A stretch of 43,007 nt of DNA. It comes from a virus. Positions 4,420 to 24,098 of this stretch are shown here, in pieces. Every line of letters begins with the position of its first letter. Within the stretch, counting starts at the first letter, position 1. A program made the translations under genes and the position numbers. Where the stretch lies: IMG/VR virus record IMGVR_UViG_3300045019_000021, positions 1-43,007 of that record, one strand, 5' to 3'. Below the pieces are notes generated by a model. The model made no database searches and had not been told where the DNA came from. It saw only the letters and a program-made list of their open reading frames with translations.

Positions 4420-4652
4420 GCTTCCTGCTCCTCAAGTTCTTTCATCCATGCCTGGTATTCTTCTGGATTGCAGTGCTCGCACGGCAGCCGGGCAACTGAT
4501 GGGTCATAGCCGTCATCGTCCATGTCTGTCATATAGCCGTCAGTACACATGAGGTCTGGATAGCTGGTATCGCCGCTGTATCCTTGCCGATGGCAGCCGC
4601 CGTCAAAGATCGGGAAGGCGCGGCGAAATTTGCGTCTTTGGTGTGCGTTCAT
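4416..4652 (-). CDS. Small acidic Cys-containing protein, 78 aa
   Basis: The protein has a basic N-terminus (NAHQRRKFRRAF), a run DMDDDGYDPS, and a C-terminal CEHCNPEEYQAWMKELEEQEA. Two of its four cysteines form CxxC, so a metal site is possible. It overlaps both neighbours by ATGA (4652-4649 and 4419-4416), placing it firmly in the coupled early operon. No family is recognised. Confidence 0.7.
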   Translation of the reverse strand: MNAHQRRKFRRAFPIFDGGCHRQGYSGDTSYPDLMCTDGYMTDMDDDGYDPSVARLPCEHCNPEEYQAWMKELEEQEA

Positions 4653-5239
4653 GCTTTCGGCTCCTTACTCGCTGTAGATGCGGCAGCAATAGCAGCGCGG
4701 GCGTATTCGTGCATTTGCTTGCCAGTAAAACAGTCCTCGTGCTTATCTCCGTCATCGTCATGAATCAGCACAGAACACACTTCCGGCTCTGGCAGCGGTG
4801 GCAGATCGGCTGTTTGCGCTGGTGCGGCGGAAAGCGTCTCGAATGCCTTGTTGATATCGATTGCCTCTTGCCTGGTTACGCCCACCCACCATGCGCCATT
4901 CCAAAAGCGTTTAAGCGTCGAGACTGCCTCAGGTGCGACTGGCTGCGCTTGCGGTGCTGCTCTCAGTTCTTCAACTTGCAATCGGAGCAAATCGCGCTCA
5001 AGCACAATGGTCTGCGCTCGCTCTGGCAGATCGTGATAGCTGTGCCGATGCAGCGGCAATTCAGGTCCACGCAAAGCTGTTGCGACGCCGGCAAGGAGCT
5101 TCGACAAGCGCTCGATTACGTATGCGTCTTCTTCGGCTTCGGTTTGCGCGGCAGATTTTGAAAAGGGCGGCGATTTGCGTGGTCCGAGCGGGTCTTCCTC
5201 GCTGAGCTGCCAGTTGCGGTCGTCGTGGTTCGTTGTCAT
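4649..5239 (-). CDS. Ea22-like phage early protein, 196 aa
   Basis: I place the start at ATG 5239 (GGGAG seven bases upstream); the longer frame upstream overlaps the PAPS-reductase-like gene and is not coding-like. The sequence contains VIERLSKLLAGVATALRG, an LERDLLRLQVEELRAA helix, and EEDAYVIERLS, features seen in Ea22-like proteins of many phages. A QAQPVAPEAVS linker resembles those in the next gene. It is an operon member by ATGA overlap. Role unknown. Confidence 0.7.
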   Translation of the reverse strand: MTTNHDDRNWQLSEEDPLGPRKSPPFSKSAAQTEAEEDAYVIERLSKLLAGVATALRGPELPLHRHSYHDLPERAQTIVLERDLLRLQVEELRAAPQAQPVAPEAVSTLKRFWNGAWWVGVTRQEAIDINKAFETLSAAPAQTADLPPLPEPEVCSVLIHDDDGDKHEDCFTGKQMHEYARAAIAAASTASKEPKA

Positions 5240-5252
5240 GATTTCTCCCTTG

Positions 5253-6200
5253 TTATTCGCAGAGGCCGTAAATCGATGTGCAAAGCGGCCCGTCGTTTTG
5301 CATGCGGAACATGTCCATCGTGCGGCCGCCGCGCCCTGTCTGCGACCATTTGACGAACTGCATGATATTGCCGGCCTCATATGCTTTCGCCGGGTCTGTT
5401 TCCCCCAGATCGCTCGCAGAAAAGAATGTTGCTGCATCCCGCTTGCTCGCTTCGGCCACAATCTTTTCCCATTCCGCGATTCGGGCAATTTCCTCTGGAA
5501 ATCGCTTGCTGATCTCAAGGAGTTCATCTTTGCGGGCATGGATGCAGGGCATGCACCCAACACGCCCCATCCCTTGCTTGTAAAGCGGATTCGGTTTGAT
5601 CCCGTGCTTGGCATGGATAGCAAAAACTTGCTCCACATTCCATTTCAGGATTGGTCGGAAATTCCACAATTCAGCGCCGGTGCTGTTGTCAATTACCTTG
5701 CATTCGTTCTCAGGCAGCAGCGCCCTGTTTGGAGATTCATCGGCCCTTACGCCTTGCCACGAAATTACGTCCTCCCCAGCGTCCAGATATGGGTTCTGCA
5801 CCTGATTGATGATCGGATTACGCTTCAATTCTTCCGAGCAGAATCGAGCTTTGGTCGAGGGGAAGCGCCCCTTCCAAATGCACAGATCCAAGAATGGATT
5901 CCCGGTCGGTTTCAAAATCTCCAGTGCCCGCAGAACCTTCTCTTCTGGCACGCCTTGTTCCCGCCACTTAACGGCCACGAACTCGGCCTTGCCCGCAATT
6001 TGACGGGAGAAGTCTGCTCTGATTGTGCGGATCGGGAATACGGTATCGTTCAGGTATTGGATGTATTCATAGGTCTGCGCATGCTCATGCCCTGTATCCG
6101 CGAATACGGCTTGCAGGTTCGGTGTATCGCGCTCGATCGCCAGCAAGAGCAATGCTGTCGAATCCTTCCCGCCCGATACCGATACGATGTTGTGTTCCAT
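5253..6200 (-). CDS. PAPS-reductase-like (CysH/DndC-type) PP-loop protein, 315 aa
   Basis: Residues 9-15 form a PP-loop (SGGKDST), the ATP/adenylate-binding site of the adenine-nucleotide alpha-hydrolase family. Downstream are RFC (Cys121), SWQGVRADES and a GCMPC pair (Cys216, Cys219), an arrangement shared with CysH and DndC. CysH reduces PAPS with thioredoxin; DndC takes part in DNA phosphorothioation. Which chemistry applies here is unknown, and no dndD/E-like partner is visible. ATG 6200 has a GAG-type Shine-Dalgarno; an upstream TTG at 6215 has none. It lies just downstream of gp157, ssb and sak4 in the recombination part of the operon. Confidence 0.8.
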   Translation of the reverse strand: MEHNIVSVSGGKDSTALLLLAIERDTPNLQAVFADTGHEHAQTYEYIQYLNDTVFPIRTIRADFSRQIAGKAEFVAVKWREQGVPEEKVLRALEILKPTGNPFLDLCIWKGRFPSTKARFCSEELKRNPIINQVQNPYLDAGEDVISWQGVRADESPNRALLPENECKVIDNSTGAELWNFRPILKWNVEQVFAIHAKHGIKPNPLYKQGMGRVGCMPCIHARKDELLEISKRFPEEIARIAEWEKIVAEASKRDAATFFSASDLGETDPAKAYEAGNIMQFVKWSQTGRGGRTMDMFRMQNDGPLCTSIYGLCE

Positions 6201-21271: not shown

Positions 21272-21979
21272 GTGATTAAGCGTTTTGACGAGAACAAGAA
21301 AGGGCGGGATTTCGTTGTAGGAGATATTCACGGCTGCTTCACAAAGCTTGAGATCGCCCTCTACGAACTTGGCTTCGATGGCGAGGTGGACAGACTCTTT
21401 AGCGTGGGGGATTTGGTTGATCGTGGGCCGGAATCGGAAGAAGCAACCGAGTGGTTGGCTAAGTCCTGGTTCCATGCGGTCAAGGGGAACCACGAAGATA
21501 TGGCGGTTCAATTCGCTGCCAAGCAGATCGATTCCTACATGTATTCGGTCAATGGCGGGGCGTGGTTCATCGGCATGACTGAGCCGGAGCGTGCTCCGTA
21601 TCTTGATGCATTCAAGGCGCTGCCAATCGCAATTGAAGTCATGACGCCGGCCGGTCTCGTCGGGATTGTGCATGGCGAATGCCCGGTTGATGACTGGGCG
21701 CTGTTTGGCCCCGCCTTGAAAAGCAGGCATGCCGAAGCGATTGCGAATATGTGCCTGTGGAGTCGCGAGCGCATCACGAACGGGTATGACGGCGCAATTG
21801 GAGGTGTCCGTGCAGTCATTTGCGGGCACACGCCACTCAGAAGCCGGGTACAGCTTGGGAATGTGCACTACATCGACACGGCGGCCGTATTCCCTGGTGG
21901 GAAGCTGACCATTCTCGACCTTGCAACGCTTGAAGAGCCGGAAATGCAGATTACGGAAACCGTAGGGAGCGCACAATGA
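21272..21979 (+). CDS. Metallophosphatase of the PP1/PP2A/ApaH-like phage family (lambda NinI type), 235 aa
   Basis: The metal-binding signature is complete: GDIHGC, then VGDLVDRGPES, GNHE, and later VHGE and CGHTP with a conserved His. These residues bind two metal ions for phosphomonoester hydrolysis; lambda NinI is a Ser/Thr/Tyr phosphatase. GTG 21272 follows GGGAGAGAGA; the earlier in-frame ATG at 21209 lies inside the micro-gene. The natural substrate is unknown. It overlaps the next gene by ATGA. Confidence 0.9.
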   Translation: MIKRFDENKKGRDFVVGDIHGCFTKLEIALYELGFDGEVDRLFSVGDLVDRGPESEEATEWLAKSWFHAVKGNHEDMAVQFAAKQIDSYMYSVNGGAWFIGMTEPERAPYLDAFKALPIAIEVMTPAGLVGIVHGECPVDDWALFGPALKSRHAEAIANMCLWSRERITNGYDGAIGGVRAVICGHTPLRSRVQLGNVHYIDTAAVFPGGKLTILDLATLEEPEMQITETVGSAQ

Positions 21980-22425
21980 ACGGCGTTCAAGTGCTGAATC
22001 CTCCGGGTGCCTGCTCGGTTTGCTATGGAAGCGGCTTTGACGCGACTGGCAAGCCCTGCGGTTGCGGATGCAAGCCGCTCGCGCATGTCGCAAAGCTTGT
22101 GGCGGAGTTCACTGGCAGCGATGTGAATTACTACCTCGTGCCAATTGCGCAGCCAAAGCGGGCCGGCGTTGCGCCTTACACGGCAGAGTGCGAGGACATC
22201 ATCGAAGCGCTTGGAATGACCTTCGCCGAAGGCTGCGCTTTCAAGGCCATCTGGCGTTCATGTGCGGCTCGCACGCTTGGGAAGAAGAAAGCGGGGCAAG
22301 ACGAAGAAGGTGTGTATGACGCAGAAAAGGTCGTCTATTACGGCGGACGGATGCTTGCGCAGCGAACCAAGGCAAAGGAAAAGGCGCAGCGGCAGGACCG
22401 GGTTCAATCGTCAGAACTTAAGTGA
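21976..22425 (+). CDS. DUF3310-like protein with N-terminal zinc finger, 149 aa
   Basis: Residues 12-32 have the spacing CSVCYGSGFDATGKPCGCGC, a DnaJ-like zinc finger. The remainder (APYTAECEDIIEALGMTFAEGCAFKAIWR ... VYDAEKVVYYGGRML) follows the DUF3310 pattern found in phage nucleotide-kinase-like proteins of unknown activity. It sits between a phosphatase and dUTPase, suggesting a nucleotide-metabolism link, which is inference. Confidence 0.7.
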   Translation: MNGVQVLNPPGACSVCYGSGFDATGKPCGCGCKPLAHVAKLVAEFTGSDVNYYLVPIAQPKRAGVAPYTAECEDIIEALGMTFAEGCAFKAIWRSCAARTLGKKKAGQDEEGVYDAEKVVYYGGRMLAQRTKAKEKAQRQDRVQSSELK

Positions 22426-22435
22426 GGAGCAGGGA

Positions 22436-22843
22436 ATGGAAGTGAAACTGGAAGGAAAGGTGGTACGCGGATCGGCTGGCGCTGCGGGATTTGACCTGGT
22501 GGCCGCTGAGTCGGTGCACATTCTGGCCGGTGACCGGGCGCTGGTCAAAACCGGTGTGCGGCTGGAAATGCCGGCTTACGTCTGTGCGCTGGTCGTACCG
22601 CGCTCGGGGCTGGCGCTCAAGCATGGAATTAGCGTTCTCAATGCGCCTGGTTTGGTGGATCCCGATTTTCGTGGGGAAGTCGGCGTCATCCTAGTGAATC
22701 ACTCCAACAAAGCATTCAGCGTCTCCCCTGGTGACCGGATCGCGCAGCTTCTGTTCGTGCCATTCGTGGCGCCGACGTTCATTGAAGGCGAATTGAGCGA
22801 GACGGCACGCGGCGCGGGTGGTTTCGGTAGCTCGGGGGCCTAA
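22436..22843 (+). CDS. dut: dUTP diphosphatase
   Basis: Trimeric enzyme hydrolysing dUTP to dUMP and pyrophosphate, keeping uracil out of phage DNA. All five motifs are seen: AAGFDL, PRSGLALKHGI, GLVDPDFRGEVGVIL, GDRIAQLLF and the C-terminal RGAGGFGSSG. The length of 135 aa is normal. ATG 22436 follows GAGGAG; the upstream extension overlaps the DUF3310 gene and is rejected. Its stop overlaps the next start (TAATG). Confidence 0.95.
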   Translation: MEVKLEGKVVRGSAGAAGFDLVAAESVHILAGDRALVKTGVRLEMPAYVCALVVPRSGLALKHGISVLNAPGLVDPDFRGEVGVILVNHSNKAFSVSPGDRIAQLLFVPFVAPTFIEGELSETARGAGGFGSSGA

Positions 22844-23850
22844 TGATCCAGTTCACCATCCCAGGCGCTCCAGTTGCGAAAGGGCGAGGATTCAAAAAGG
22901 CCTCTGATCAACAAATTCTTGAGGCATATGCATTGCATGGTTCATGCGCGAAAGCCGGGCGCGCCTTAGGGATGGGTGCGCAATCCGTTCATGAGCGCCT
23001 TGTTCGGCTTGGTGCAATAAAGCACATCAACGTCTTTTCAAAGTCTGATGAAGCTCGTCTCAAACAAGATTATTCCAAGCATGCCGAATCCGGAACGCTC
23101 GCTGCGTTGGCGTTGGATCTCGGGCGGACAAGGCATTTCATTTGCCGGAAGGCGAAAGAAATGGGCTTGACCGACATGAAAAGACCAAAGCCGTACATAT
23201 CAGAAAAAATTTCTGAATTAACAAAAGAGCGTATCGCAAAGAATGGTCATCCTCGTGGAATGGCAGGGAAAAAGCATTCCGCTGAAACACTGAGCGTCAT
23301 TTCAAATAAATCAAAGGCGCGGTGGGACGCTATGTCCGCAGATGAAAGATTGGCAGCGACTATGCAGCAACTAAAGGCGAAAGAGGCCAAATCTGGTTTG
23401 GTTACGACGCGGCCGAATGCCACATGGAAGGCTGGATGGCGGGTGGTAGGTGGGCAGCGAGTCTATTTTCGCAGCCGATGGGAGGCAAATTATGCCCGAT
23501 ACCTTGAATGGTTGAGACTAAAAGGCCAGATCAAGGCTTGGGAACATGAGCCAGAGACATTCTGGTTTGAAAAGGTAAAGCGCGGATGCCGCAGCTATCT
23601 TCCAGATTTCAAGGTGACAGAAAACAATGACTCGGCTGTCTATCATGAAGTGAAAGGTTGGATGGACGACCGTAGCAAAACAAAGATTAAGCGGATGCGG
23701 ATCTACCACCCTTCTATCAAGTTACTCGTGATTGATGCGAAGGCGTATCGCTCAATTGCCAAGACTATGCGATCGCTGATTCCAGAGTGGGAGGCGGATA
23801 GATCGCAGGCCGTGGTGATGGTGAAGGAGCTGGATGGAGAGCCGGCATGA
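22843..23850 (+). CDS. RusA start fused to a NUMOD3 / PD-(D/E)XK homing-type endonuclease, 335 aa
   Basis: Residues 1-15 (IQFTIPGAPVAKGR) look like the N-terminus of a phage RusA Holliday-junction resolvase, then the similarity ends. Residues 22-58 and 68-109 are two helix-turn-helix-like repeats. A NUMOD3-like segment (HPRGMAGKKHSAETLSVISNKSK, about 136-158) follows. Residues 205-305 match the DUF1064-type PD-(D/E)XK fold with Glu214 (RSRWE), Asp255 (YLPDF), Glu269 and Lys271 (HEVKG). So a mobile endonuclease appears to have replaced the RusA body in frame. No RusA remainder is found downstream. It should be an active DNase; resolvase activity is unlikely. Confidence 0.8.
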   Translation: MIQFTIPGAPVAKGRGFKKASDQQILEAYALHGSCAKAGRALGMGAQSVHERLVRLGAIKHINVFSKSDEARLKQDYSKHAESGTLAALALDLGRTRHFICRKAKEMGLTDMKRPKPYISEKISELTKERIAKNGHPRGMAGKKHSAETLSVISNKSKARWDAMSADERLAATMQQLKAKEAKSGLVTTRPNATWKAGWRVVGGQRVYFRSRWEANYARYLEWLRLKGQIKAWEHEPETFWFEKVKRGCRSYLPDFKVTENNDSAVYHEVKGWMDDRSKTKIKRMRIYHPSIKLLVIDAKAYRSIAKTMRSLIPEWEADRSQAVVMVKELDGEPA

Positions 23851-24098
23851 ATCATCGCAAAGTCGCACCACAAGCTGAATGGATCGATTCCGACCTGAAT
23901 CCGCCAACAAGCGGCGCGCGCGTGCTTGCTCTGACCCTCGGCGGGGTGCTGGTCCCAGTGGATTGGTCGAGCGCGAATGCTGCGGATTTCGTCGCCTGGT
24001 GCCCATTCCCGAAGATCCCGAAGCCGATCAAAGACAAGCTGTTCAAAAAATTTTCCAAGGAGCAGGGCAATGTCTCAGCAGAAAAAGCCGCGCAATAA
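23847..24098 (+). CDS. DUF551-like small phage protein, 83 aa
   Basis: The pattern AEWIDSDLNPPTSGARVLALTLGGVLVPVDWSS ... DFVAWCPFPKIP resembles the WI-P-exxP...VlV...g-VxxAxw...VTHWmP scheme of DUF551-like phage proteins. Function unknown. The start overlaps the endonuclease stop by ATGA, and the end overlaps the next gene by 29 bases. Confidence 0.7.
   Translation: MNHRKVAPQAEWIDSDLNPPTSGARVLALTLGGVLVPVDWSSANAADFVAWCPFPKIPKPIKDKLFKKFSKEQGNVSAEKAAQ

Follow-up and report, generated by a model that had tools for sequence, protein, structure and literature searches.

The fusion gene and its genomic neighbourhood

The DNA analysed in this work (referred to as the window) is a stretch of 43,007 nt, corresponding to positions 1 to 43,007 of the IMG/VR virus record IMGVR_UViG_3300045019_000021. 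Its gene content, which includes repressor-like genes, NinB, an O-like initiator, DnaB, NinI, terminase, portal and the major head protein, is that of a phage. The features of the locus of interest are listed in Table 1. The ATG of the fusion ORF shares bases with the stop codon of dut (TAATG), and the downstream gene, which had been described as DUF551-like in the earlier note on this DNA, showed no Pfam family and no match among phage records. The endonuclease has a GC content of 49%, lower than that of the rusA start (58%), the tail (64%) and the flanking genes (56-61%). A PADLOC search returned nothing. The gene at 21976-22422, which is flanked by ninI and dut, covers no more than the C-terminal part of the larger phage families that it matches (positions 330-420 of phrog_4521 and positions 229-304 of the polynucleotide kinase phrog_7063) and is read as a free-standing domain.

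Table 1. Features of the window at the RusA-endonuclease fusion gene.
Feature	Position	Strand	Basis
dut (dUTPase), upstream neighbour, translational overlap with fusion ORF	22418..22843	+	PF00692, E 7.6e-33
RusA start fused in frame to DUF1064 / PD-(D/E)XK endonuclease	22843..23850	+	335 aa, ATG start, frame open
rusA start codon and codons 1-16 (MIQFTIPGAPVAKGRG)	22843..22890	+	phrog_140 match; RusA N-terminal HMM
Endonuclease proper, residues 17-320	22891..23802	+	Homology, predicted structure
Two three-helix units, HTH-like DNA-binding modules (residues 22-56, 67-106)	22906..23160	+	Predicted structure; weak HTH_1 match
NUMOD3-like segment (residues ~133-165, HPRGMAGKKHSAET)	23239..23337	+	Invariant residues
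PD-(D/E)XK nuclease domain, DUF1064 (E214, D255, E269, K271)	23428..23790	+	Pfam match, alignment, Foldseek
C-terminal tail (residues 321-335), possible in-frame rusA 3' end	23803..23847	+	Weak similarity to type A ends
Downstream gene	23847..24098	+	Overlaps endonuclease stop (ATGA)

The proposal that a RusA N-terminus is fused in frame to an endonuclease was borne out. The start (a 21-aa query) led to RusA phrog_140, with residues 1-16 matching its positions 38-53 (E 0.23), and with a home-built RusA N-terminal HMM these residues scored 27.1 bits, whereas the best of 1002 background windows reached 10.2 bits. Residues 34-300 matched phrog_190, which carries the name 'Holliday junction resolvase', with an E-value of 2e-35. 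In the 80 relatives initially fetched from viral contigs, homology to the window protein mostly does not set in until residue ~18 or beyond, and the additional N-terminal starts seen in other relatives are those of different RusA families. Due to this, residues 1-16 lie outside the endonuclease family, contrary to one of the two objections that the earlier note had foreseen; in regard to the other, these residues were not met elsewhere as an unrelated N-terminus. They are disordered in the predicted structure (pLDDT below 50). As nothing beyond these 16 residues matches the RusA family, the product lacks the full-length fold and the catalytic aspartates of a RusA resolvase, and a PF05866 search of the record gave no match, so that no other RusA is present in the window genome.

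The tail at the other end of the protein (QAVVMVKELDGEPA, 14 residues), which the earlier note had passed over, is also disordered in the predicted structure and is atypical of the family, 48 of 60 representatives of which stop within 5 residues of the conserved W. Its similarity to the ends of type A RusA proteins (p ~0.03 by shuffling; 2.2 bits, p 0.09 by position) is suggestive only of a rusA end.

Domain structure and active site of the endonuclease

Residues 207-297 of the window protein match DUF1064 (PF06356) with an E-value of 1.7e-5, scoring 25.6 bits against a gathering cut-off of 24.7, and the domain was matched at E 1 or better in 25 of 25 members. The E-D-E-K catalytic residues read from the sequence earlier (E214, D255, E269 and K271) were found to be invariant in an alignment of 25 members (the window protein and 24 relatives) and also in 60 cluster representatives, in which alignment they are numbered +4. 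The conserved E, the PD and the E-x-K, together with an alpha-beta core, place the domain among the PD-(D/E)XK nucleases. The structure was predicted with a mean pLDDT of 83. Residues 18-320 contain two three-helix units together with a helical linker and the nuclease domain, so that in this model the folded protein comprises residues ~18-320 with the flanking tails outside the fold. The two helix-turn-helix-like repeats proposed earlier agree with the two three-helix units, and matches to HTH, sigma70_r4 and GcrA were seen in relatives of the endonuclease. The proposed NUMOD3-like segment stands in part: NUMOD3 was detected in 6 of 25 relatives (best E 3.1e-5) but fell below the threshold in the window protein alone, and H136, P137 and H145 of the segment are invariant across the 25 aligned members, so that the label holds at the level of the family. 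The joining of NUMOD/HTH modules to a nuclease, by which homing endonucleases are recognized, is thus seen here as helical units in the window protein and as NUMOD3 in its relatives. A sequence search of the PDB gave nothing significant.

RusA remnants around the endonuclease in related loci

Relatives of the endonuclease from two scans were grouped into 83 non-redundant clusters, with the second, independent batch contributing 22 new clusters. Profiles for RusA starts and ends were built from the intact genes of three RusA types, viz. type A (PGxPVxKGR), type B (LPWPPxxLSPNxRxHW) and type C (LPYPPSVNxYW), and were applied to the 900 nt upstream of the conserved core (starts) and to the 260 nt downstream of the endonuclease end (ends). 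Pieces of rusA scoring above every background window were detected in 28 of the 83 clusters, and in five of these (L002, L004, L021, L416 and L427) both the start and the end of rusA are kept. In the other 55 clusters no rusA remnant was detected.

In the first set, 12 clusters besides the window have starts that exceed all 1002 background windows, and these starts derive from different RusA types. In 11 of these clusters (L002, L004, L010, L019, L021, L027, L028, L040, L055, L073 and L167) the start is fused to, or lies before, the endonuclease, and the remaining one (L078) has a near-complete RusA upstream. An in-frame rusA start is present on the endonuclease of the window, L001, L002, L021, L040, L416, L427 and L435, and in L004 and L010 the rusA start overlaps with the endonuclease in a stop-start manner. 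One example of this kind is L004, where the stop codon of the RusA start lies directly before the endonuclease ATG (TGAATG). An N-terminal match in L434 was rejected as a rusA start, as it lies inside the endonuclease in a different frame.

At the opposite side, RusA C-terminal fragments scoring above all 3880 background windows were found in 21 loci from 12 clusters of the first set, with a best score of 58.5 bits as compared with a maximum of 8.7 bits for background windows from the same loci. The surviving 3' piece consists of the last 20-40 codons of rusA directly behind the endonuclease, mostly starting 2-14 nt after its conserved final Trp-Glu and usually in another frame. The Pfam RusA model (PF05866) also hits behind the endonuclease in L002 and L003 with its profile positions 92-123 (E 1.4e-6 for the L002 fragment), and the second batch of 22 clusters yielded five further C ends and four further starts. 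Joints with rusA are seen in independent contigs and in the complete plasmid record NC_015459. The earlier note was thus correct that the rusA start has been captured, but the rest of the gene was not simply removed: the insertion lies inside rusA, and its last codons survive in many relatives.

In two loci (L078:4402-4900 and L453:134-440) a near-complete RusA lies directly upstream and is not split by the endonuclease. By eye, its PDxDN and DD motifs are degenerate (PDLMM/NNAQ in L078 and KPIDNF/NKQQ in L453), suggesting that an inactive RusA is kept beside the endonuclease. Among the 70 endonuclease-bearing records searched, many of which are fragments, none had a RusA whose catalytic motifs are intact. 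The endonuclease was found in 0 of 50 records with intact rusA, a result of little weight in a search that had no positive control for what is a rare endonuclease. In 30-31 endonuclease records, which may be fragments, NinG was not found over the cut-off and endonuclease VII was found over it in one.

Some other observations concern the DNA before the endonuclease. In L025, the minus strand at 4545-4661, opposite to that of the endonuclease, carries a RusA C-terminal fragment immediately ahead of the endonuclease, as though either the remnant or the insert were inverted. A subclade consisting of L066, L069, L076 and L079 has a different extra start, IPxGYVEVxKGVYERID, in or just upstream of the endonuclease ORF, which by eye is not RusA and is possibly the captured start of another gene. 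Further, the AT-rich members L020, L025, L030, L034 and L064 have in common a stretch resembling TRAGATATTGATAAT ('*DIDN'), which lies ~15-60 nt ahead of the endonuclease; this motif is enriched (8/83 vs 8/2498) and may be either a rusA remnant or shared upstream promoter-like DNA. Only L027, L028 and L031 were counted as keeping a rusA motif of this kind.

Site of the endonuclease within rusA and an uninterrupted locus

The positions of the joints were determined with reference to the RusA of Pseudomonas phage PS-1 (120 aa; DLDN at 67, DDSQ at 87). The kept RusA ends of 18 clusters, including the weaker L019 and L070 but excluding the L054 fragment, which was misplaced by the aligner, start at residues 74-98 of this protein. 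As longer ends are easier to find and yet none of the clusters keeps more, the position of the 3' joint is restricted to the catalytic segment. In L027, L028 and L031, a rusA start with an internal deletion is followed by a PDxDN motif immediately ahead of the endonuclease, the rusA codons left there being MQITF...VPVAQPDVDNMTKTLDTL, KEPDFDN and KPDCDN (L031, L027 and L028). Since PDxDN is kept upstream and ends from the catalytic segment are kept downstream, the endonuclease would first have been inserted between PDxDN and DDSQ, and the stranded 5' half would have been lost afterwards. In the sequences, the endonuclease lies between the first strand of rusA and its catalytic DD segment.

An uninterrupted counterpart is provided by PS-1 (NC_029066), which is syntenic with L018 and L071 (84-87% identity in the packaging genes) and whose gp39 is an intact rusA. 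Positions 4944-4969 of L018 match PS-1 through the rusA ATG (88% over 26 nt) and positions 5841-5938 match the last 33 codons of PS-1 rusA (73%). In L018 and L071, the endonuclease occupies rusA from the start codon to codon ~87; the intervening rusA codons are gone, a 290-codon endonuclease is in their place and the last ~33 codons are kept. Among these related phages, one site is thus found both occupied by the gene and free of it, as is looked for in homing. However, PS-1 is the uninterrupted locus for relatives of the window and not for the window's own lineage. The comparison with intact-rusA phages that had been proposed earlier could thus be made at the homologous place of L018 and L071 but not at the window's dut locus, as no close relatives of the window with an intact rusA between dut and the next gene were found; a search for an intact relative of L002 and L003 via their downstream gene retrieved only L002 and L003 themselves. 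PS-1 also has an endonuclease VII-like gene (L386:6077-6838) before the small terminase gene, another mobile-looking nuclease, which is absent from L018 and L071 at the matching junction.

In a tree based on the nuclease domain, the distribution of the three RusA types requires 11 changes, no fewer than when the labels are randomised (mean 10.6), and well-supported clades mix RusA types (L004 with L020; L002, L003 and L040 with L050). Due to this scattering of the three types over the endonuclease tree, several separate entries into rusA are needed on this tree, many branches of which are weak. As the sequences show, the endonuclease-in-rusA arrangement recurs in many phage lineages (about a third of the clusters) and in three RusA families, and the fusion, as these joints indicate, is not unique to the window but the product of an event that has recurred.

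Proposed origin of the arrangement and alternative explanations

Our interpretation, which we consider probable, is that the endonuclease is of the homing type, i.e. site-directed and self-spreading, that it inserts into rusA at the codons of the active site and that it comes to use the rusA start as its own. This is inferred from the type of domains (sequence-reading modules and an intact nuclease), the location in codons that are the most strongly conserved of a gene widespread among phages, and the repeated independent entry. The HTH and NUMOD3 modules would guide the nuclease to the most conserved rusA codons, between KPDxDN and xDDSQ, with a predicted target at codons ~74-90; repair of the break from an interrupted copy would insert the endonuclease gene, with loss of RusA. 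Deletion of the stranded 5' half would then place the endonuclease under the rusA start codon, in frame or by stop-start overlap, and the rusA end would decay behind it. Counting against a homing origin are the 55 clusters without a detected remnant, the two RusA neighbours that are not split, the uninterrupted locus of PS-1 standing for relatives of the window and not for its own lineage, and the fact that in the window only the rusA start is secure. Further, no group I or group II intron was matched by Rfam in the window and seven relatives, and no splicing product could restore rusA, as its middle is missing at these loci.

One alternative, which we regard as rather unlikely, is that the DUF1064 endonuclease is itself a branched-DNA resolvase, which replaced RusA in situ by recombination within rusA without any homing drive and was retained for doing RusA's job. 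The fully conserved active site, the occupation of rusA's place next to genes of recombination (NinB, NinI and dut in the window; NinB and other genes elsewhere), the lack of RusA with intact motifs in the 70 records, many of them fragments, and the two near-full RusA neighbours whose catalytic motifs are lost by eye are all in accordance with this, as is the name of phrog_190. However, that name is an annotation only, the nearest fold is that of TnsA with T7 endonuclease I matching only at E 0.28, HTH/NUMOD3 modules are typical of sequence-directed nucleases and not of resolvases, and recurrent 3' junctions at the DD motif are unexpected from a simple replacement. Homing and a displacement of function are compatible and both can be true. 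Ordinary mosaic recombination, with the endonuclease gene as one of many modules and the rusA joints as random breakpoints, would agree with the mosaic nature of phage genomes and with the clusters lacking a remnant. It is, in our view, quite improbable, as all of the placed 3' joints fall at RusA residues 74-98 with none further upstream, joints of the same kinds recur in three RusA families, and no other genes were seen to be split likewise, except for one start of an unassigned gene. The retention of the start in frame in several lineages could also indicate that it functions today, e.g. as a dimerisation strand or as the expression tag of a working RusA-nuclease hybrid; this is very hard to reconcile with a single remaining RusA strand devoid of catalytic residues and disordered in the model, and with the many relatives in which the start is lacking or is cut off by a stop codon (L004 and L010). 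A chance similarity or an assembly joint, to which the mere 16 residues of the window match might point, has the least to commend it, given a score of 27.1 bits vs 10.2 for the background and joints repeated in independent contigs, in the complete plasmid record and against PS-1.

The loci described here form a natural series of one event in stages, from the intact gene through a gene that is split at the catalytic segment and one whose start has been captured to the disappearance of the remnant, in which a phage resolvase gene has been overwritten again and again by an unrelated nuclease. They bear on how homing genes settle without introns and on how phages swap recombination enzymes, and they illustrate how readily a gene of this kind is misannotated when judged by its first residues. 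A farther-reaching proposal, which we hold to be doubtful, is that of a homing endonuclease family specialised on the active-site codons of phage resolvase genes, which has taken over their expression signals and function repeatedly in three families; if true, a selfish element becomes the phage's recombination nuclease.

Comparison with known systems

In the open-access full-text literature, nothing was found that describes RusA with homing endonucleases, DUF1064 or gene replacement like that seen here, and a survey of phage homing genes makes no mention of RusA, resolvases or DUF1064 (PMC10448857). With the RusA crossover-junction resolvases (PF05866, phrog_140) the window gene shares the first 16 codons and the position of the start codon, and relatives share also the last 20-40 codons, but the window protein is without the catalytic core and is not a RusA. 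In its domain match above the cut-off and its invariant E, D and E-x-K, it resembles the DUF1064/phrog_190 phage nucleases, from which it differs in the modules that precede the nuclease (two HTH-like units, a NUMOD3-like segment) and in the captured RusA ends. The best Foldseek match of the predicted fold in the PDB is Tn7 TnsA (1f1z_A, E 9.5e-4), and TnsA-like Pfam matches are present in 6 of 25 relatives; however, the TM-score is low (0.29-0.36). Intron-encoded homing endonucleases of the PD-(D/E)XK class are represented by the I-Ssp6803I type. The likeness to them, at the level of nuclease class, consists in a PD-(D/E)XK nuclease in a homing-like setting, whereas the window endonuclease has no intron as judged by Rfam and its target is a protein gene. 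The I-Ssp6803I-type family is listed in PMC6083498. Lastly, the T4 seg/mob-type free-standing homing endonucleases with NUMODs also combine DNA-binding modules with a nuclease and are sporadic and recurrent (PMC2988022), though the nuclease fold of the window protein differs from GIY-YIG and HNH. The free-standing homing genes known from phages are intergenic and do not lie inside a gene without an intron or intein (PMC2988022), which again counts against homing in the present case; in contrast to them, the endonuclease of the window lies inside a gene, destroys it and uses its start codon.
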